This document shows, piece after piece, positions 1 through 16,110 of a stretch of 64,000 bases of DNA (position 1 is the first letter of the stretch; every line of letters starts with the position of its first letter). This DNA is from Polytrichum commune (taxonomy: Eukaryota; Streptophyta; Polytrichopsida; Polytrichales; Polytrichaceae): positions 12,462,001 to 12,526,000 of the forward strand of contig OX485803.1 of the NCBI GenBank assembly GCA_950295325.1, given 5' to 3'. A program made the position numbers and the translations under genes. The notes under the pieces are model-generated. The model worked only from the letters and a program-made list of their open reading frames with translations. It was not told the DNA's origin and ran no database searches.

Positions 1-2
1 CT

Positions 3-2216
3 AACAAACTTCCCACCCCACACATAATAATCAACAATGTAGACAAAATAGGTAACATTTGCTACATAACACACCTACACCTCAAAACCCCTAAAAACAA
101 ACCCATACAATACTACACATGGAATAACTTTACACTCATCCTCCTAAGTGGGGACATCCAACTTAACCCGGGACCAATATACAACATACTCAAGAACCTC
201 CCCCAAGCATATATAAAAAGACAAAAACAATACTTCCTACCCGACACATTAACACTCAAACCTCAATACACACACTTAGAAAAACTATTCGAACCTCATC
301 TTTCATACAACACCAATAATCCCCAAAATCTAGCACTAACACACTTACGAACACATAGTCTACTCCTCTCACAATATCCAACACACCACATACGATATGC
401 ACTTATAATAGTATATAGCCCACTACCACAAGTTTGTAATCAACTAATGTCCAAAAAACTAGACCCAAGATACCTAACCATCCTACGGAGACTTCAAGCA
501 CTCCCCATAGACACATACTCAACACCAACACACATAAATAACTACCCCCTCATGTACACAACCACAACAACCATAACACAAGCATATTCCAACATTAATG
601 ACAAAATAGCCAGAGGAATACCTATAAGTCTAAATAGTCTAAGGATAGAACTACCTCACTTCCCAACAAAAATATTACAAGAACTAACCAAATGCACTCA
701 ACCTATAATAGGACACCACCCTACCACAAGACCAACAAACCACCGACAAACACCACCTAGCGACACAAGACCAAACAACCCTCAAACTCAAACCTTAAAC
801 ATAATCACCTGGAATACCGGATTCATTAGCACTAGCCTACCCGGTATCCAAGAGCTCACAAGAAAATTACACCCAAACCCTCACATCATCCTTATCCAAG
901 AAACCAAAATCCCAAAAACTAAATCCACATCATACATAGACCGCCAACTACAAAACTACAAACTAATATACAACAATTCCAACAACATGATACCCAAATC
1001 GATATATACAAATGAAAACATCGCCAAAATCCCAACCCCGAGTCACATATCACCATACCTCCAAGCCATCCTAATCAACAACAAACCCTTAACACCAATA
1101 CTCCTACTAAATATGTATATGCCAACACATCCACAAGACATACACCTTATACCGGACATTCAAAATAAAATCCTTACCCTCATGACCCAACACGCTAACC
1201 ACCAAACAATATTAGGAGGAGACTTCAATCGAGATATCTTACTCAAAGGTAGAATATATAACGGCATCCCTATACCACCCAACCACAACGACCAAGAATG
1301 GGCCCGCTTCACACAAACCAATAACCTCAATGTGGTTCCTAACCCAAAACCGCTCACAAGACAAGGAGGCCACAACTACACATCCACAAGTCACATAGAC
1401 GGTTTTTACACTAACACTTCCCACACTCCGAACCTCATAAGCCACACAATAACTAACCTCAACCAAAACTCGGACCACTACCCGGTCCAACTCCAACTAA
1501 ATCCAAATAGCATAATCATCAAAGACCACAATACACCCACAAACCAACCCCGTATCACATATCCCATATCCCCCAAAAGCCTCCAAACCCTACAAATCAC
1601 ATTCCTAGAAAAACAAAACTTAGCAATAGAAGACCTCACAAAAATTCTCCAACATGACCACCTCACACACACACAATGGGAGAACGCACAAACTACACTT
1701 CAAGAAATCATCAACTCCCTAAGCCAATGTATTGAACACATTTGTATGACAAAACCTACCCCGCCTCTACCTAATATAGTCAAAAATCAAGGAGGCTTCC
1801 TCCCTAGACCACAACAAAAGAAATGGAAACGGCTACTAAAAGTACACCATACTATTCGTAAAGCCATAAAAGCCACATGTCAATACCCCCTCACTCACCT
1901 TCACAACGAACCCGATATCATATCCCTCCAATTAATCCAAACACCTAATATCCCACCCTTACCTACCAACCCCGCGGACTTACATACTTGGGTGGAAGAA
2001 CTCGCCAAAATCGGTAAAAATGCCAAGAGCGAAGCCCACAAAATCATCACTAAACAAGCATCTACCAACTGTAAAATAACCATTACAAAATATAGAGCCC
2101 TACTTAATAGCAAACCCAAAACCATCCACAAAAAGATATTTAACCCGACAACCAACAACTCCCTAGATTGCCTCCAAAATATACACGGACAAACCTTGTC
2201 AATCCCCGAGATATAG
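3..2216 (+). pseudogene. LINE polyprotein, N-terminal part with 2A-like motif and APE endonuclease
   Basis: This frame is open from the first bases of the window to the stop at 2214-2216, so the true start lies upstream. The first Met is at 447, but the frame before it also reads as protein and carries the 2A-like motif, so 447 is probably not the start. The endonuclease shows ITWNTG (about 804-821), QET near 898, a Y/M-P motif near 1118, GGDFN (about 1216-1230), a SHID motif near 1390 and SDHYPV (about 1470-1487). These are the metal-binding and catalytic motifs of the APE/EEP family, which nicks target DNA in LINE retrotransposition, and all appear intact. The frame is lost near 2195, where the continuation moves to another frame. 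The upstream product, by analogy an ORF1-like protein, is outside the window. Confidence 0.85.
132..176 (+). other. 2A-like ribosome-skipping motif (TLILLSGDIQLNPGP)
   Basis: In frame with the endonuclease, codons 132-176 read TLILLSGDIQLNPGP. The known 2A consensus is D(V/I)ExNPGP preceded by a Leu-rich, often LLxSG segment; skipping occurs between the final Gly and Pro. Here all of NPGP, D-I and the LLSG lead-in are present, and the usual Glu is Gln. 2A-like motifs of this type are known in several animal and trypanosome LINEs. Function in this element is inference. Confidence 0.8.
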
Positions 2217-4335
2217 CCCAAGAAATATACCAAACACAACAACAATCATTTCAAAGACAAGCCCCCTTATGTGATGACGTCACGGACCACCCAAACACAT
2301 GCACATGTGCAGTCCGCAAATACTCATGGCACTCACAACAAGGCTTCATCCTAGATAAGAGAGGCCCCCTAAATGCACACATAACCCCCCAATTTACTAG
2401 AGAAATATACAATTGCTGCATCAAACGATTAACAAGAGGAAAAGCCCCCGGCCCGGACAACATTCCTAATGACATACTCAAAGCGCTCCCACCGCAATGG
2501 CACGATCTCCTTTTCCTCTTCTTTACCCACTGTTACAAACAAAGGACAATCCCGCACCACTAGAAACACAGTAAAACAATATTACTGCACAAAAAAGACG
2601 ACCCGACCCACCTAGCCAACTATAGACCAATAGCATTAGCCAACACGATTTATAAGCTATACACAAGCACACTAACCACATTACTAACGAACTATGGAGA
2701 GCAACATAGATTACTCCACCTTAGCCAAGAAGGTTTTAGACCACAACGAAATACATCACGCCAAATTCAAACCATAATAGCGGCCCTAGAAGATGCCAAA
2801 CTTACCACACAAGACATATACTTAACCTACATCGATTTCCGAAACGCATTTGGATCCATAGACCACGCCCGCCTCCTCGCCCTAATGGAAGACCTAGGCT
2901 ACCCCTAGACACGGTCGAAATAGTGGGTAACATATATGAAAATTCTTCCACCTCCTTCGCGGGAAGCCATTTCGGGACAACTCCCCCAATACGAATAAGT
3001 AGAGGGACGATACAAGGAGACACCCTTAGTCCATATTTATTTATTATCTTTCTTGAACCACTCCTAAGATGGCTAGAGAAAGATGATGTAGGATACCACT
3101 TCAATACCTCCCACTCCACGTGTACCACCACCGCCTACGCCGATGACTTAGCCATCCTCACGGACAACATACAAAGTATTCAAACGCAAATCATCAAACT
3201 ACAAAAATATGCGGAATGGTCCTACATGGATCTCAACCTCTCAAAGTGCGCCATCACCGGATGTCCTAATAAATCTAAACTCAAGCCTAATACCTTCAAA
3301 GCCTACATCCAATCCCAAAATATCACGTACAAATCACAAAATTTTCCCATCCTCACCCAAAATGAATCATACACCTACCTAGGCATACAATTGACACCAT
3401 CACTTAAATGGAATTTACAAAAAGAAACAACATTAAAGAAAGTCAAACAACAAAGTCAATTGTTAGCCAACTCGCCAGCTAGCCTTATACAAAAAATAAA
3501 AATCCTAAACACGGTCATTAAACCTCGTATAGCATACGCATACTATGCAGTCTCATTTTCCAAACCTGACATTAAAAAATTAGACAAAATAATTAGTAAG
3601 TTAACCAAAGACATATGTCACATCCCCAAAAGCACGGCCAATATCCTCACTCACCTCCCTCACGAAAACTTTGGAATCAATGCAACCTCCCTACTACCGG
3701 ACTATGTAAGATGCATAGGCCAACAATTAATCCAAGCCCTTAACGACCCCGGTCAATTAGGTATCATCTACCAAGGACTCACAAAACATATTACGGCCAA
3801 ATATGGCGGCTCACTCCACCTACCTAAACTCAAGCAACAAGCATGCATAAGATCGCCCATAGCTCGAACGCTATTCCTCCTCGAAAGGGAATATGAAATA
3901 CATGTCACCTCCGCAAAACGATCATTCCCCATCAGAAAGACACCATTAGAACAAACTTGGACAACTAATCCCAACAACGCCAACCTCGCGGAAAACTCCA
4001 TAACCAAAACCCAAAAATATTTAAATAAACTCTACACATACGGCATAACCACACTACCCCAAATCCAAAACCCCGACACAAAAACCATCCTCACCCCCCA
4101 AGAATTCCAAGCCAAATATAAACACGCCCCAAAACTTATCAAAGAAGCCCTCCAACAAGCCACAATATTATTCCCTACTCCCACCGTCACAATACCCACG
4201 TCCCTCTCTCAAGACCCTTATGCTCCTAACACTCCCGCCATAACCTCCCAACCCACACTAGGGCAACCCATCCAAAAAATAATCAATGACAAAACCAACA
4301 TCCGAAAAGACAAATGGGGAGCACAAGCCATAAAA
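2180..4335 (+). pseudogene. LINE reverse transcriptase, frameshifted
   Basis: The RT runs in two frames. The first (to the TAG at 2561-2563, then on to a TAG at 2906) carries the RGKAPGPDNIP motif, ANYRPIAL and motif A, where the first Asp is present (YIDFRNAF) but the usual second Asp is Gly (FGSIDH). The second frame, from about 2902 to 4335, carries GTIQGDTLSP and the catalytic YADD box (3136-3147). The thumb and a long C-terminal extension follow. The nonsense codon at 2561 and a one-base shift near 2902 inactivate it; another shift near 4330 moves the frame again. The family role is target-primed reverse transcription of the element RNA. Confidence 0.85.
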
Positions 4336-5361
4336 CGAAATGTACCTATGCCAATGGCAACTACCACAAGGAATCTCCCAACAATGGCGCAAAGAAGAAG
4401 AACTAATTCACCCGGATAACATCCTCCTTGAACATAACATACTACGCATAACACAATACCACCACACCCAAACAAAACAACAAAATATACAAACATACGC
4501 CAACTTTCTCAACCACAAACAAACAAAAGACAACAAATATGTACACCCACCCCGAAGAATTACCAACCTAACACTATCTATACACGAATGCAACCCCGAT
4601 AAAGATATACAAACGACCCAACCTACCATCCAAATACAAGCCTTGGAGGCCAACATATACGACTCCATAGGCAACTACATGGCCACCCTTACCATTGAAA
4701 GACTACAATGGCTTTGGGATCAATTCTCACACAACAACCATACTCACTTAATTAATGAAATCCAACCCCCACCCCAAAATTTTGAAACAGAAGTACTATG
4801 GCTTATACAAAGATACATCACAATCCTTCCTAAGAAAAAACCAAAAAACACACTACCAAGCAACCTCCACCATACACTACACCCAACAATCACCAAGACA
4901 TTAATAGAATCACTTAACATCACACACTCATACTATTCATCCCCCCTCACATGCCCCACCCAACTCACACAATTTTACTCCCCACACAACCGAGATAAAA
5001 TCTTTGGCTCATTGGGTCATGCCCAATCTTCTAGATGGAAAGGTATTGGCCTCGCACACCCCACGGACTACAACACCACAATAGAAGCCATCCATTGGGC
5101 CCGTATGGCAGCTAAGGAAGACATAGACACAATAACTATCCTCGTAATCAACCATAATGATTGGACGCCACAACAATTCCCAATCTCAACAAAGGGAGAC
5201 ATACACATACTAGCCACTATCCCTCCACACACAATACAATACAACCCTACACCCGAATGGCCAAAATACTACCACTACGAAGAACCATCCCTAGTCTCAA
5301 TAATTTGTATACATAGCCAAACACACTTAGCACCGAACCTAAACCCCCCCCCCCCCCCCCC
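4336..5361 (+). pseudogene. LINE linker between RT and RNase H
   Basis: An open stretch continues the polyprotein after the frameshift near 4330. It is rich in Asn, Thr, His and Pro and shows no domain I recognise. It ends in a run of about 18 C (5344-5361) that encodes Pro and then falls out of frame. Beyond the run another frame is open straight into RNase H, so one length change in this homopolymer would explain the break. Confidence 0.6.
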
Positions 5362-6549
5362 GCACTCACACATGCAGTAAAACTAACCACTAACACACAC
5401 ATTGACACCTACCCCATCAAACCCACCACACCAAACTACCATATCAAATTCTCAAATACATGGAAAAATGCTCCCAAAATAGATACTCCCATAACAACAA
5501 CCACCACTCCAATACCTTTACCAAATAAATACTACACCCAACACCCCCCTAAATACCAACCACAACAATGCATGTACACCGACGGGTCATTCATCCCCCC
5601 ATCAAAAAACTCGGAAGGCCAAATAATAGGCAACACGGCCGGCTCCGGAGTATATAGTCCCCACCAAGACATCCAAATTTCAGAGAGATTACCGGGATAC
5701 CAAAACATACTCAGAGCAGAACTCAACGCCATACTCATAGCGGTCAAAACCATACAAACTACCCAAATGGACACACACATATTCACAGATAGCCTTAACA
5801 GTATATACTTAATTAACAACCATATACAACGCCCAACTTCGCAACATCACCACCCCGATAAACTCCTCATAGCAGCCATAATACACCAAATCTATTGGAC
5901 TCCACACTCCATCCACATTCACAAAGTACGAGCCCACACAGGAATTGCGGGAAACGAAAAAGCGGACATATTAGCCAACGAAGGAAACCTCCAAGAAAAA
6001 CCAACCAACACCCCACACATCCACCGGGCACACGCCACACCTTACTGGCTAGCAAGTTGCCCAACCGCCACCCACGATGGAGCTATCAGAAATATTCACA
6101 AATTCATACTAAAAGAACACACCAACCGAGAAAAAACACATGCCCAACACAAATTCCCATATGTAGAAAAATGGTTAACTAATGACCATATAAATCAAAA
6201 ACTCTCCAACCACTTTTGGAAAAACACAAAAATAACAGACGCTCAAATCACCCAAACACTAAAATTCAGATATGCCCAATATATGGGTAACCACAGAAAA
6301 AACATTTTCTGGCCCCTCAAATTCCGAAACCCCAATTGCACACTATGCTACAAAAATGATAGAGGCACATGGCCCCATCTACTATCAATGTGCGAGCATC
6401 CCTATCTAAAAGGCCTAAGAATAGCCCGCCACAACAACGCGGTTCACTTCATCACTCAAACACTACAAGCCAACAAACACACAAGATACTACACATTAAC
6501 AAATGCAGGAAACCTCAATAACACAAACCAACAACAAACGGTCCCATAA
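5362..6549 (+). pseudogene. LINE RNase H domain and zinc-finger segment
   Basis: The frame is open from the C run to the TAA at 6547-6549. RNase H type I motifs are all visible: YTDGSF (5575-5592, first Asp), RAELNAI (Glu), FTDSLNS (second Asp) and VRAHTGIAGNEKAD (His and last Asp). The product would degrade the RNA strand of the cDNA hybrid. After it comes a C-x2-C-x9-H-x4-C pattern (about 6334-6395) like the zinc fingers at the end of many LINE polyproteins. The catalytic set is intact; the stop at 6547 separates it from the last domain in the same frame. Confidence 0.85.
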
Positions 6550-6999
6550 TGGCTCCTAGAATGCACGTGCCCACAAGCACAATGTCAATGCCAAGCAAGA
6601 TTACGCCCAGACATCCTTTGTATAATAGGAGCCCCAAACCAAGCCTCAACACCCCTTATACCCTCACCCGCTCACACAATACAATTTATTGAATTCACAT
6701 ATTGCCATGAAAGATTCCCGGAACAAGCAATCACACAAAAACATACAAAATACGACCCACTAATCAATGCTATACGGAGCAAAGGCTGGAAAACAAACCC
6801 CCTCATAACTATCACAGCCGGCGTAAGAGGCGCCATACACGAACAATCCATCACAAGGCTAACAGACCTCAAAATACCAAAGACTAGCGTCAAAACTCTC
6901 ATGAAAAACATACACCAAAATGCCATTAAATACTTAACATACCTTGTACTTAACAAAAGAAAACTAGACAATAAACAAAATACAGTCGCACCACCCTAA
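6550..6999 (+). pseudogene. LINE C-terminal PD-(D/E)XK-like (restriction-like) endonuclease domain
   Basis: After the in-frame TAA at 6547 the same frame stays open to a TAA at 6997-6999. It begins with a Cys-rich segment (CTCPQAQCQC), then RPDILCI, then IEFTYC some 26 residues after the Asp, then a conserved K..KY..L pattern, GW, and a TAGVRGAIH segment. The spacing and motifs resemble the restriction-like endonuclease at the C-terminus of R2-type and Dualen elements. If right, the element had two endonucleases. The identification rests on motif pattern only; a structural comparison was not possible. Confidence 0.6.
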
Positions 7000-7140
7000 A
7001 AAGGGACCGAACATTACAAACTAAAAGAGCCCACCTCCCACAAGAGGCATAACTCCTTATGTAACAACACGGCTCGCCGTGTTAAACATCTGGATAACGG
7101 GCTCACATTCATGCCGGTACAATGTACAGGCGTAATTTTT
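7000..7140 (+). other. LINE 3' UTR with a GC-rich palindrome
   Basis: Non-coding tail after the last stop. It holds an 18-base palindrome at 7066-7083 (AACACGGC, TC, GCCGTGTT) that could form a 7-bp stem. LINE 3' hairpins can be recognised by the RT; that role here is inference. The A/C-rich composition of the element stops shortly after it. Confidence 0.5.
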
Positions 7141-7324
7141 CTTTTCTTTTCTTTCGTTGGGCCAAAGGGGTATCAAAGAACATATGCTGCTCTTCAGGTC
7201 AAAATACGGAATAATTTTCAAGCTTGCCAAAGAGGAGTTGGAATCAAGTCTCATCCTTTTTTTTACATGATCAATTTCATCATTTTTTGTGGTCTTGTGT
7301 AAAACAAAATGAGATTGTCACTTA

Positions 7325-9500
7325 CTCCTTTGGTAAGATGTCTTCACATAATTGCAAAGTCAATTTCATGAAGGTTCCAAGCTACTTCATGAACCTTCCA
7401 ACTCATGTTACTATAGTGTTATGCCAATTTCATGTACCTTCTAAATTAGTTCACGATTCCTCTAAACTAGCTTGACATGTGGCACACCTTAATTTCATGA
7501 TAGTGGACCTTTACCTCTAGCAACTTCATGAATCTTCCAAACCAAGAGGTTCTCGTATTCTTAACTTCTCAACTTCTCGCCTCCTCGTTTCACAACATTT
7601 GATTGTTTGTGAGAGCCTTCGTACTAGGTCCAACATTAGAATTGCTTTCGAAGTGTATTTATGTGCCCACATACAATTCTCTCGTTCTCTAGTGTATTGA
7701 TCCGATGTTCTAGCATGCTCGGGTTCTCTTTCGAGATTTTGTAATGGTTACATGCCTCAAGGCCACTTTTGTAGGACTCAACAACATATGATGGACAATA
7801 TACTTTGTTTTCTCTCCGCATTCTCCATGTTCACAAACTTTGATACACAAATTTCATTCAAATTCGAAAGGTTTATTTGTATTCATAGATTGTAGATAAT
7901 TATAGAATTTGCGATTTATTCAAACCACTCGAGTTGTTTAGAGTTAATAAATCAAAATGAATAAATCAACAAACTTTGAGTCAATTGGAAAAATCTATGA
8001 TTACCTACAATATGTGAATTTTATTTATTCAATATGATCACTATACGATTTATTCATATCACTTGAGTAGTCTCCTAGATAATTATAGAATTTACGGGGC
8101 CTACTGTAAATGACCAAAAAATTGTGACTGTGTTTGTTCCTTTACAAAAAAAACATAGTTAGTTTTGGTCCATATCACTTGAGTTGTCTCCTACATAATG
8201 ATTGAATTTGTGGGGGCCTACTGTAGCTATGCCTAATCGCCCACCTAGATAAAACTGCACAGGTGATGCACTTCGTTCACGAATTACACATTCTATTTTT
8301 AATGAGCTCTAATCTTATGCTGACAAAAATGAATGTTACGGTTATCCTTACAAGACTATTAGGAGCATAGCCAAAGCTTTTGAAGAAAATGCTTGATTAA
8401 TGCCCAAACACAAAAACAGTGCTCGCCATATAATTTTACAAGATGAGCACATTCAATGGTTAGTAGAGAGGCTTCATGTAGATCTAGACATCACCGTGAA
8501 ATCTCTTCATCGTTAGTTGAATGAAGTTTTTTTAAATTCCCATGCCATGTATCTAGTAGTTGTGTTTCCAAAGTGTACAGTTGGATTTACCCTCAAGTTG
8601 ATGCAATATGAACCATATGATTATAACAATGAAGAACGCCTTGAGAGCACATAGAGTGGTCTTAAAAGATTTTAAAACTCAGTGGCAATATGGCTAACGA
8701 TGTGTATGTGGATGAGGTTGGTTTCAATTTACATTTGATACGTTGATTTGGAAGGGCTTCTCAAGGACAAAGATGCCAACGAATTTGTGCAACTCAAAGG
8801 GGTCGAGATTTCTCTTTTGGTGGTTGCACTTGGTCGTGAAGGAGTCATTGCACATGATGTCACACTTGGTGCCTACAATACAAACAAGTTCTTGGAATTC
8901 AAACAAACCAAGTTCACACCTAGCCTTGATAAAGAAAGGTTCATCCTCATGAAAAATGTCTTATTTCCTGGATCTCATGAAATACAACAGGCTTTTGAAG
9001 ATGTTGGACACATCTACTTCCGTTTGCCATCATATAGTCCATTTGTCAATGTTGCGAAATGAGTATCTCAACACATCAAAAGTCATGTCCGACGGAATGA
9101 TCTCCAAAATCATCGAACATTACTCCTTTACATTAATGATGACGTACAAGCAATCATTGCAGACATGGTGCAAGATTGGATAAGAGAGGTCAATTGATAT
9201 TTTGGTAGAGCTAGTCACGGGGAGTGATCAGGAGAATCATGTACATGATGTACCGTCCTTGGTGAAATAAAGCTATACAAGTTCATGAAATTGATTATGT
9301 GAGGTTGTGAATATGGGTACCAAATCATGAAGTTCTTCACAATATGTAGTGAAATTGGTTGAAAGTTCAAGATAAATCGGTTCTCTAAGTAGTGAACTTG
9401 GTCCTCTATTCCAATGAAATTGGTAGGACCTACTGCTAAATTGGTTTATTAAATCATGAAATTTAGTTTGCACTTCTATGACTTCATCTTACCAAAGGAG
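7325..9500 (+). mobile_element. Tc1/mariner element with 16-bp terminal inverted repeats
   Basis: The ends CTCCTTTGGTAAGATG (7325-7340) and CATCTTACCAAAGGAG (9485-9500) are perfect inverted repeats. TA stands just outside the left end (7323-7324); the right flank is CA, compatible with one transition. Long non-coding arms (7341-8260 and 9200-9484) carry repeated ATTTCATGA motifs. The transposase lies between. The TIR resembles the CTCCY start of plant mariner/Stowaway ends. Confidence 0.8.
8265..9200 (+). pseudogene. Tc1/mariner (IS630-like) transposase, catalytic residues lost
   Basis: A decayed transposase reads in mixed frames. The first catalytic Asp is in YVDEVGFNLH (8704-8733). Open coding at 8748-9062 includes the LLVVALGREGVIAH strand, ILMKNVLFPGSHEIQ (8943-8987), where the usual Asp of the DN pair is Lys, and YSPFVNVAK (9033-9059), where the usual final Glu is Lys. 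The spacing between the last two sites is 34 residues, so the ancestor was DD34E, whereas the mariner-like elements usual in plants are DD39D. Stops and frameshifts upstream confirm it is inactive. Confidence 0.8.
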
Positions 9501-14210: not shown

Positions 14211-16110
14211 TTAATTGGCATAAAAACGTGGTGTACTAGTGCGGCTAAGGAACCCGTCCAAGATAGGTGGAGAATTGCCAATGAAAATGGGTTGCAAACC
14301 TGGATCTTTCCAAGATACTTGGCACCCCTTGTGGCCTACACCTAGAGTTGCAAATTATTGATCAGTTTCTTATCACTAGGGTCAAGGCCACTTTGGAGGT
14401 CTACTTAGTTGTGTTAGCTAAGCTGACTACATGTTGCCTTTAAAAGTCGGAGGTCTAAGCCTTACTTCCCTAGAAGATGCTTTGAGAGTGCTCATGAGCA
14501 CATGGATTATTCAAGCACTTCTACATGGCCAATCGAATTTACAAATTCTTTTGAGGTACCACATCATGCAACTGCAACCGTCTTGTAATGGCTCTTGGGG
14601 CCCTTCCTCTTTGTGTTTGTTCTCTCCCAAACTCTTTGTCAAAGACGGCTCAAAAGTATGGTACCATATTGCTCAGTCCTAGAAGGTGATGGTGCGCATG
14701 GCCACCTTTCTTTCTCCTTCATGTTTAGAAGATTTTTTGCAACTTAAACCTTTGGTGGCAAGAGGAGTACCAAGGCCTTTATTTCGGCTTCACCATGAAT
14801 AGGGCTTTTATCCTCTATAATAAAGGTTTGAAATTTTCTTGAGACATTTAGGACCCCTTATAGGAATGATTTTTTGGAATGGGAGGAAGCACAGCTTGAA
14901 TTCTCCCTTGCAAAGGTCTATTATGATTTATGGGTCAAATTAGTAGAGCATTTGGTTTGTTCAAAGAGAGAATGTGTAGTCAACTTGGTGCTCAACCTAC
15001 GTCACAAGAATGGGTTGGTTTGTATAAAAACATAGAGGATACAATGCATGAATGGGTTGTTTGTGCAGGATACCTCAAGGAATTTAGTTTTGGTCTAGCG
15101 GAGTTTAGCATTGAGTTCATGGGTAGCTTCCCTAAATCCATTGTTGGGTTGCAATACTTTACCCTTATTGAGGTGAAACCGAATGCAAGGAAAGTAGTAC
15201 CTTCCACAACCTTCTTAGGATGGATGACAAAGGTTAGGGTGGATAGGCATTCTCATGGCAGTGCTCATCTGCAATTCAACTTGTGATTTGGAATATTTAA
15301 TCAATTTTTCTTTGACCCAACTAGATGGTGGGGGCATGAAGTTACTATTTTCTTGGCTTACACAACCAAGCTTGGTAGGACGTGGATCACTACCCAAGTT
15401 GCCCTTAGAAAATCGATTCCAGATTCGTGGCGGAATGAAATTCTACCTTCCACCTCCTTTAGATGGAACATCATCTGGCACAAACACAAAGCACAGAAGG
15501 AAACAAAATTTCTTTCGTCAGCTCTTCACAAGGCGGTGGTGGTGAATGAATGGCGTGAGCAGATCTCAATGGAGAGTAACAAGAGTTGTCCCCATTGTGG
15601 GCAAGAAGTTGCGGAATCGGTGGAGCACAAGTTCTTCACTTGCCTATTAACTCAACAAGTGTGGTGCTATGCATCCAACATCATTTGGCAATTCTTTGCA
15701 AGAAGAGGTAACCTATGCCCACAGAAGTTTTTTCCAATGATGCAATGCCTCTTTGATCAACCTCTCAACAAAACTCTAAAACCTCTTAGTCGAATTTGGT
15801 TCTTCTTAAGAAGTGGCATCCCCTGGATTATTTGGCATCAACACAATGATTTAGTTTTTAAATTCTAGTAAGTGGCCATTGGAGAAAACAAATCAACTGG
15901 TGTGGGACACCTTACTTGGTTATGGTAGACTTGAGTGACAACGGACTTTCCAGGTTTTGAAAAATGTTCAGGATGTTGCCTACGAAGATGTTCTTAACAA
16001 ATTTGACTTTGCATAATGTGTCAAACGTCTCATTATTACTCGTAGTTATTTGTCGGTCACTTGCAAAGGTAGCCCCGGATGGGCATTACTTCTTGTCCCT
16101 CGGTTTTCCA
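14211..16110 (+). pseudogene. L1 polyprotein C-terminal part with zf-RVT region
   Basis: Downstream of the nested insertions the L1 product resumes: NWHKN, LGTPCGLHLELQ, VGGLSLTSLEDAL (about 14446), then, in the frame open at 15353-15868, WRNEILPSTSFRWN, LHKAVVVNEW, CPHCGQEVAESVEHKFFTC (zinc-binding zf-RVT pattern) and IWFFLRSGIPWIIW. A further VAYEDVLNKFD segment lies near 15977. Multiple stops and shifts make it inactive. Confidence 0.8.

Follow-up and report, generated by a model that had tools for sequence, protein, structure and literature searches.

StopGo (2A) sequences are already known in LINEs, where trypanosome L1Tc and animal APE-type elements are the closest described cases. In virus genomes, a 2026 survey found nearly 10,000 StopGo sites (PMC12846837); it reports no sign that plant viruses use StopGo naturally and states that artificial StopGo sites work in plants. 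The survey describes position 14 as almost exclusively Glu in virus sites. It reports His at position 14 and His at position 16 as rare variants measured at ~90% or more, while Gln at position 14 is not among the variants it flags or tests, and it assigns an L-rich stretch ending in Gly to upstream motifs 2 and 6. LINEs of the Dualen type are described as carrying both APE and RLE endonucleases (PMC4640811), and Table 3 of a 2013 paper places RandI under green algae only and gives L1 and RTE for flowering plants (PMC3747384). Overlapping start and stop codons, like AUG-Nx-UGA (x of 2), are described as sites of coupled reinitiation, with SART1 as the LINE case (PMC5972666). Here we analyze a LINE in a plant genome that combines these features, and we argue that its 2A-like motif very probably acts as a genuine StopGo site of a Dualen-type element.

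Results

The window, a 64,000-nucleotide stretch (C1:12462001-12526000), comes from an assembly of 64 contigs, nearly all of which is contained in seven contigs of 42-78 Mb. It carries a decayed member of a large LINE family, with several frames and in-frame stops (Table 1). One frame runs uninterrupted from base 3 until it meets a stop at 2214-2216; it encodes GDIQLNPGP at 150-176 and, downstream of it, an APE endonuclease (Pfam Exo_endo_phos_2, E 1.2e-8; Exo_endo_phos, E 2.5e-5). A sequence-only reading had placed a 2A-like motif at 132-176, in an endonuclease frame open upstream to the window edge and with Gln substituted for Glu. The motif begins at 135, position 132 being the preceding Thr codon; the frame is open as described, and Gln is correct for the window copy, with Glu, Gln, His and rarely Lys in its relatives. 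The bond predicted to remain unmade lies between Gly (171-173) and Pro (174-176). A PDB sequence search with one window ORF returned no match.

The coding strand of the element (window 1-8000) is strongly G-poor, with a GC skew of -0.58 to -0.28 per 2 kb, and a drift of position 14 from Glu (GAA) to Gln (CAA) would fit this composition. A run of C occupies window 5345-5362, inside the ORF2 region of the window copy, where two frames overlap. A 193-aa ORF at 15287-15868 with zf-RVT, a zinc-binding RT-associated domain (E 4.1e-10), is a fragment of another retroelement.

Table 1. Features of the LINE copy in the window.
Feature	Position	Strand	Evidence
ORF2 leader, C-terminal end, up to Gly of NPG	3-173	+	Open frame; AUG overlapping ORF1 stop
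Conserved context 5' of 2A (IGNICYITHLHLKTPK...YYTWNN, frame residues 16-44)	48-134	+	Column conservation; dN/dS 0.405
2A-like (putative StopGo) motif LILLSGDIQLNPGP	135-176	+	Genomic matches, modules, dN/dS
~200 residues from 2A to endonuclease, common to family B	177-803	+	Alignment of families A and B
APE endonuclease	804-1487	+	Pfam PF03372, PF14529
Reverse transcriptase, split over two frames	2588-3393	+	Pfam RVT_1, E 2.3e-12 and 3.1e-15
PCIF1-like domain, between RT and RNase H	4763-5026	+	Pfam PF12237, E 6.1e-8; fold match of L008 homologue
RNase H	5566-5985	+	Pfam PF00075, E 2.3e-16
CCHC-type zinc motif CTLCYKNDRGTWPHLLSMC	6337-6393	+	C, C, H, C invariant in four aligned homologues
RLE core (RPD ... 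EFTYC ... K..KY)	6604-6753	+	Invariant in four homologues; L008 model matches R2 proteins

We searched the 407.8 Mb of the host genome with a degenerate DNA pattern for GD(I/V)[E/Q/H/D]xNPGP. There were 400 exact matches (213 forward, 187 reverse) and none to the reversed control pattern, which excludes a chance origin of the motif; the presence of copies on all seven chromosome-sized contigs excludes contamination. Assignment of these motif matches to elements covers part of the 400. A 280-residue module around the motif gave at least 142 scored matches, many of them within long frames. From the 142 we fetched those covering the motif, minus about 16 by hand count, and analyzed 104 modules from 86 of 88 loci; one locus, L096, is very decayed and its alignment doubtful. 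Six loci (L011-L016) were excluded from the 104-module counts, having been found by the motif itself.

ORF2 frames containing NPGP reach 2409 aa in L006, 2131 aa in L007 and 2422 aa in L008. The nearest to complete is L006, which has two 2A sites and which, read from the AUG, continues for 2382 aa before meeting a stop 5' of the CCHC motif; L008 has a frame change within its leader. No family A copy among those read is open from the ORF2 AUG through the RLE, a point that we count against the StopGo reading. Both families include copies that are 98-99% identical to each other (ORF1 of C1:44782464 and of C5:33405633; nine family B matches), indicating that copying is recent.

Family B became apparent among the 100 motif matches listed, many of which read GDIE(S/P/T)NPGP; in L011-L016 and L137, sites of this form precede the same kind of polyprotein. 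The ORF2 of L137 is 2625 aa long and open across 2A, RT, PCIF1-like domain, RNase H and RLE. Its identity to the L008 ORF2 is 42%, the alignment running from about 20 residues before the 2A onward, and the leaders of the two families do not align. Twenty family B stretches were chosen from 138 matches by module similarity (identity <=85%, start by residue 5) and not by motif; L142/L143 and L155/L156 are alike over the printed part. NPGP is kept in 16 of the 20, the others reading HPGP (two), HPAP (one) and NLGP (one), and among the NPGP sites one has Ala for Asp and one a stop before Asp. His occurs at position 16 in L155, L156 and L158 (EPHPGP or EPHPAP). A single 648-aa frame at L139:7792-9735 (-) contains three 2A-like sites, GDIQLNPGP, GDIELNPGP and GDIHPNPGP; the first two are of family A type, and an endonuclease of family B type follows after a stop. 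Because L139 looks like a mosaic of the families, units seem to move between them.

The domain order of the element is leader, 2A, about 200 residues, APE, RT, PCIF1-like domain, RNase H, CCHC and RLE. Pfam identifies the APE endonuclease, and the RLE lies in the same element, with PD, EFTYC and K..KY invariant in four copies. For a low-confidence model of the L008 RLE (pLDDT 56), the top six PDB fold matches were R2 proteins; by sequence, the RT matched R2 RTs best in the PDB. Judged by its predicted domains, the window element is a LINE with the Dualen (RandI) domain set. The proposal that a Dualen-type element resides in a plant genome is supported: APE and RLE are both present and the genome carries LEAFY. 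The LEAFY SAM-domain family has four matches in the host genome (including L010 and L141) versus matches in 0 of 14 control genomes, and we therefore take the host to be a plant. The DNA-binding exon of host LEAFY reads KMRHYVHCYALH, a form that would speak against a moss. Viral contigs scanned with the RLE alignment gave 66 pattern matches, none of which was confirmed.

Both families also contain a PCIF1-like (cap-specific adenosine methyltransferase-like) domain, found outside the window at L137:1951-2940 (-) and L008:6054-7043. PF12237 reached E 3e-10 in L137 and was below the curated cut-off in L006, L008 and L140. A model of the L008 domain (pLDDT 61) had cap adenosine methyltransferases as its five best PDB fold matches (E 1.9e-8 to 1.0e-6). 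The NPPF catalytic string is present in 0 of 6 aligned PCIF1-like rows, so the domain may be inactive. A literature search on PCIF1 in retroelements, covering titles and abstract starts, yielded nothing on point.

Purifying selection on NPGP, which the sequence-only reading had proposed as a check, was evident among the relatives. Across 703 pairs from 62 of the 63 stop-free modules, the codons for the core D, N, P, G and P had a dN/dS of 0.019 versus 0.415 for the whole module; the value was 0.105 for GDIxxNPGP, 0.99 for position 14 and 0.49 for position 15. Among stop-free modules, 53 of 63 match GD[IV][EQH]xNPGP and 58 keep NPGP, compared with 24 and 27 of the 41 stop-bearing modules (Fisher P 0.006 and 0.0013, respectively; these P values, like the pair counts, overstate independence, given the common ancestry of copies and of pairs). 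In 40 non-redundant stop-free modules, the Asn and Gly of NPG were found in all 40 and both Pro and Asp in 39. Synonymous codons vary within the motif, with 68 distinct 27-base versions among the 104 modules. The motif lies in frame between two coding parts and is kept by selection, as expected of a 2A site.

Intact copies without NPGP had been named in advance as evidence against skipping. Such copies exist, since 5 of 63 stop-free modules lack NPGP, and we count them against the StopGo reading; yet 19 of 20 modules read in open frames of at least 1000 aa retain it, those with Gln and His included. The exception, L024, is without NPGP in its module; farther upstream, its frame contains another 2A unit, in which NPGP is present.

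The motif is not the only constrained part of this region. The 9-codon window at the motif is the 10th lowest of 272 in non-synonymous change, and all nine lower windows start at 264-272, where the endonuclease begins; the module as a whole is somewhat constrained, and parts of the sequence flanking the motif are conserved. We weigh these observations against StopGo, and they favor a rival reading in which NPGP is preserved as a turn in the structure, joining the leader to the endonuclease part, and causes no skipping. We consider such a turn very unlikely, however, because the conserved letters, the free position 15, the L-rich run-up and the His variants all agree with the rules for StopGo, and because the 2A unit is repeated in series, with spacing that varies. 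Other copies have duplicated a unit to which the conserved context immediately 5' of the motif (Table 1) belongs.

Constraint follows the StopGo pattern: G-D-[I/V] and NPGP are fixed, position 15 is free and an L-rich stretch ends in Gly. Upstream contexts of the suitable kind, L-rich and with Gly at position 11, are found as LILLSG, IILLCG, ELLKCG and the like. Position 10 is often His or Gly, outside the A/S/C described for the L-rich motifs in PMC12846837, and this we also score against StopGo. Relative to the core (D/G/C/N)(V/I)ExNPGP, the window motif has Gln for Glu, and family B is mostly canonical. In family A, position 14 is Glu in 37, Gln in 35, His in 27 and Lys in 5 of 104 modules, and within this set of residues it is under no measurable constraint. 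His at position 14 and His at position 16 are both recurrent in the host elements.

The frequency of Gln and the dN/dS at position 14 also stand against StopGo, and they bear on a narrower alternative, in which Glu sites skip and those with Gln or His, such as the site of the window copy, have lost some or all of their activity. A dN/dS near 1 at this position fits that proposal, as does the near absence of residues other than Glu, and of Gln as a listed variant, in the virus sites described in PMC12846837. We think it unlikely, given that all 104 modules have E, Q, H or K at position 14, that modules with Gln and His are among those keeping NPGP in long frames, and that His was active in the published test (PMC12846837). 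Full activity with Gln at position 14 is nevertheless the step most in doubt, because that survey flags His and not Gln.

Beyond the window edge, the 2A frame extends a further 913 bases 5' and starts with the ATG at L005:1588; counted from this ATG, 359 residues precede NPGP in the window copy. The extension asked for by the sequence-only reading thus ends at ORF2's own AUG and does not reach ORF1. Of the 83 ORF1 matches in family A, 47 were read at the junction. In all 47, ORF1 is in a frame other than that of ORF2, and the start codon of ORF2 overlaps the stop of ORF1, as at a reinitiation junction. The consensus of the overlap is ATG(A/G)(A/T/C)TAG (ATGRNTAG; AUGRNUAG in RNA), represented by ATGAATAG (26), ATGGATAG (11), ATGGTTAG (5), ATGATTAG (4) and ATGACTAG (1); the octamer was found in 86 of 1600 shuffled stretches. 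ORF1 matched no Pfam family above the cut-off. These junctions led us to reject a joined ORF1-ORF2. The earlier idea that the 2A frees an ORF1-like protein from a single ORF1-ORF2 polyprotein, which the open frame past the window edge had suggested, can hardly be correct; because ORF1 is in another frame and the ORF2 AUG overlaps its stop, the piece released would be the ORF2 leader. In family B, the single intact junction read lacks an overlapping AUG of this kind. We therefore dropped a start-stop overlap for family B, and we propose reinitiation for family A only.

The leader is open from AUG to NPGP in 18 of the 47 cases, with NPGP beginning at residue 171-433. In the remainder, the stretch does not extend as far as the site, a stop codon or a change of frame lies in between, or the site is decayed (L004 reads NLGP). 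With respect to the other finding named as adverse, a stop ahead of the motif, many copies have a stop or a change of frame after the AUG, but 18 leaders read through. Leader frames carry one to four NPGP, and two or more are present in 6 of the 18; the L106 leader has four, one of them with Arg replacing Gly at position 11.

The start of the leader is conserved as M(N/D/V/I)S..Y.W, a hydrophobic stretch and then NK. This start, and the precedent of 2A sequences in sea-urchin NLRs (PMC4981915), would suit a leader that serves as a membrane or secretory signal, with StopGo choosing between leader-fused and free endonuclease-RT, an arrangement compatible with our main reading. Its hydropathy is modest, however: the best 17-residue mean within the first 45 residues is at least 1.6 in 18 of 44 leaders, and just 7 of the 44 reach the 0.05 level or lower against their own shuffles. 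We dropped any firm claim of a membrane leader for this reason, and we regard a signal role as quite unlikely.

Discussion

Our reading of the motif as a StopGo site rests on its 400 genomic matches against none for the control, on the strong constraint on its core codons and on the invariant Asn and Gly. The constraint pattern, the L-rich context and the His variants agree with the virus sites described in PMC12846837. NPGP is kept more often in stop-free than in stop-bearing modules, and the two families align from just upstream of the 2A, whereas their leaders do not.

We suggest that family A RNA would be decoded in two steps. Ribosomes would complete ORF1, and some would restart at the ORF2 AUG overlapping its stop. 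The nascent LILLxGDI(E/Q/H)xNPG would then stall in the exit tunnel, and the Gly-Pro bond would not form, such that the ORF2 leader is released and the endonuclease-RT protein is made separately, starting with Pro. Where leaders have been duplicated along with the 2A, one to four leader pieces could be released.

A broader proposal is that StopGo is in natural and extensive use in a plant lineage, its Dualen-type LINEs chaining reinitiation to one to four StopGo sites that work with Gln or His for Glu and free duplicated leaders as separate proteins. We advance this tentatively, as plausible but a little short of probable. If it is true, plants carry natural StopGo, with hundreds of sites in one genome, under selection where tested; these sites would supply a natural series of Glu, Gln and His with which to test the position 14 rule, and they would suggest how elements separate a leader from their replication enzymes. 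In keeping with the sequence-only reading, which knew of no plant description, our literature search, whose scope did not take in a key survey (Odon 2013), found no 2A in a plant element.

Because StopGo in LINEs is already known, the host case is a variant of known StopGo use. As described for trypanosome L1Tc and animal APE-type LINEs, a 2A core lies in the polyprotein ahead of the replication enzymes. Unlike those elements, the host elements are in a plant, have both APE and RLE, carry Gln or His at position 14 in most family A sites, and have serial sites in duplicated leaders and an ORF2 start overlapping the ORF1 stop. Like RNA-virus StopGo, they have the core GDIExNPGP and L-rich upstream stretches of the class that ends in Gly, whereas position 14 is E/Q/H/K here and nearly always Glu in the virus sites described (PMC12846837). 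With Dualen/RandI LINEs they share APE and RLE together with RT and RNase H; they differ in the PCIF1-like domain between RT and RNase H and perhaps in the 2A. In the LINE SART1, too, the start of ORF2 is described as overlapping the stop of ORF1 (PMC5972666), but its junction is UAAUG rather than AUGRNUAG, and here a putative StopGo site follows inside ORF2. As in the 2A-like signal sequences of sea-urchin NLRs, the 2A closes an N-terminal leader; that signal is 26 residues long (PMC4981915), whereas here at least 171 residues precede NPGP and the signal role is putative. What appears to be new here is the plant host, the element with both APE and RLE, the occurrence of E, Q and H at position 14, the serial sites and the start-stop overlap upstream.
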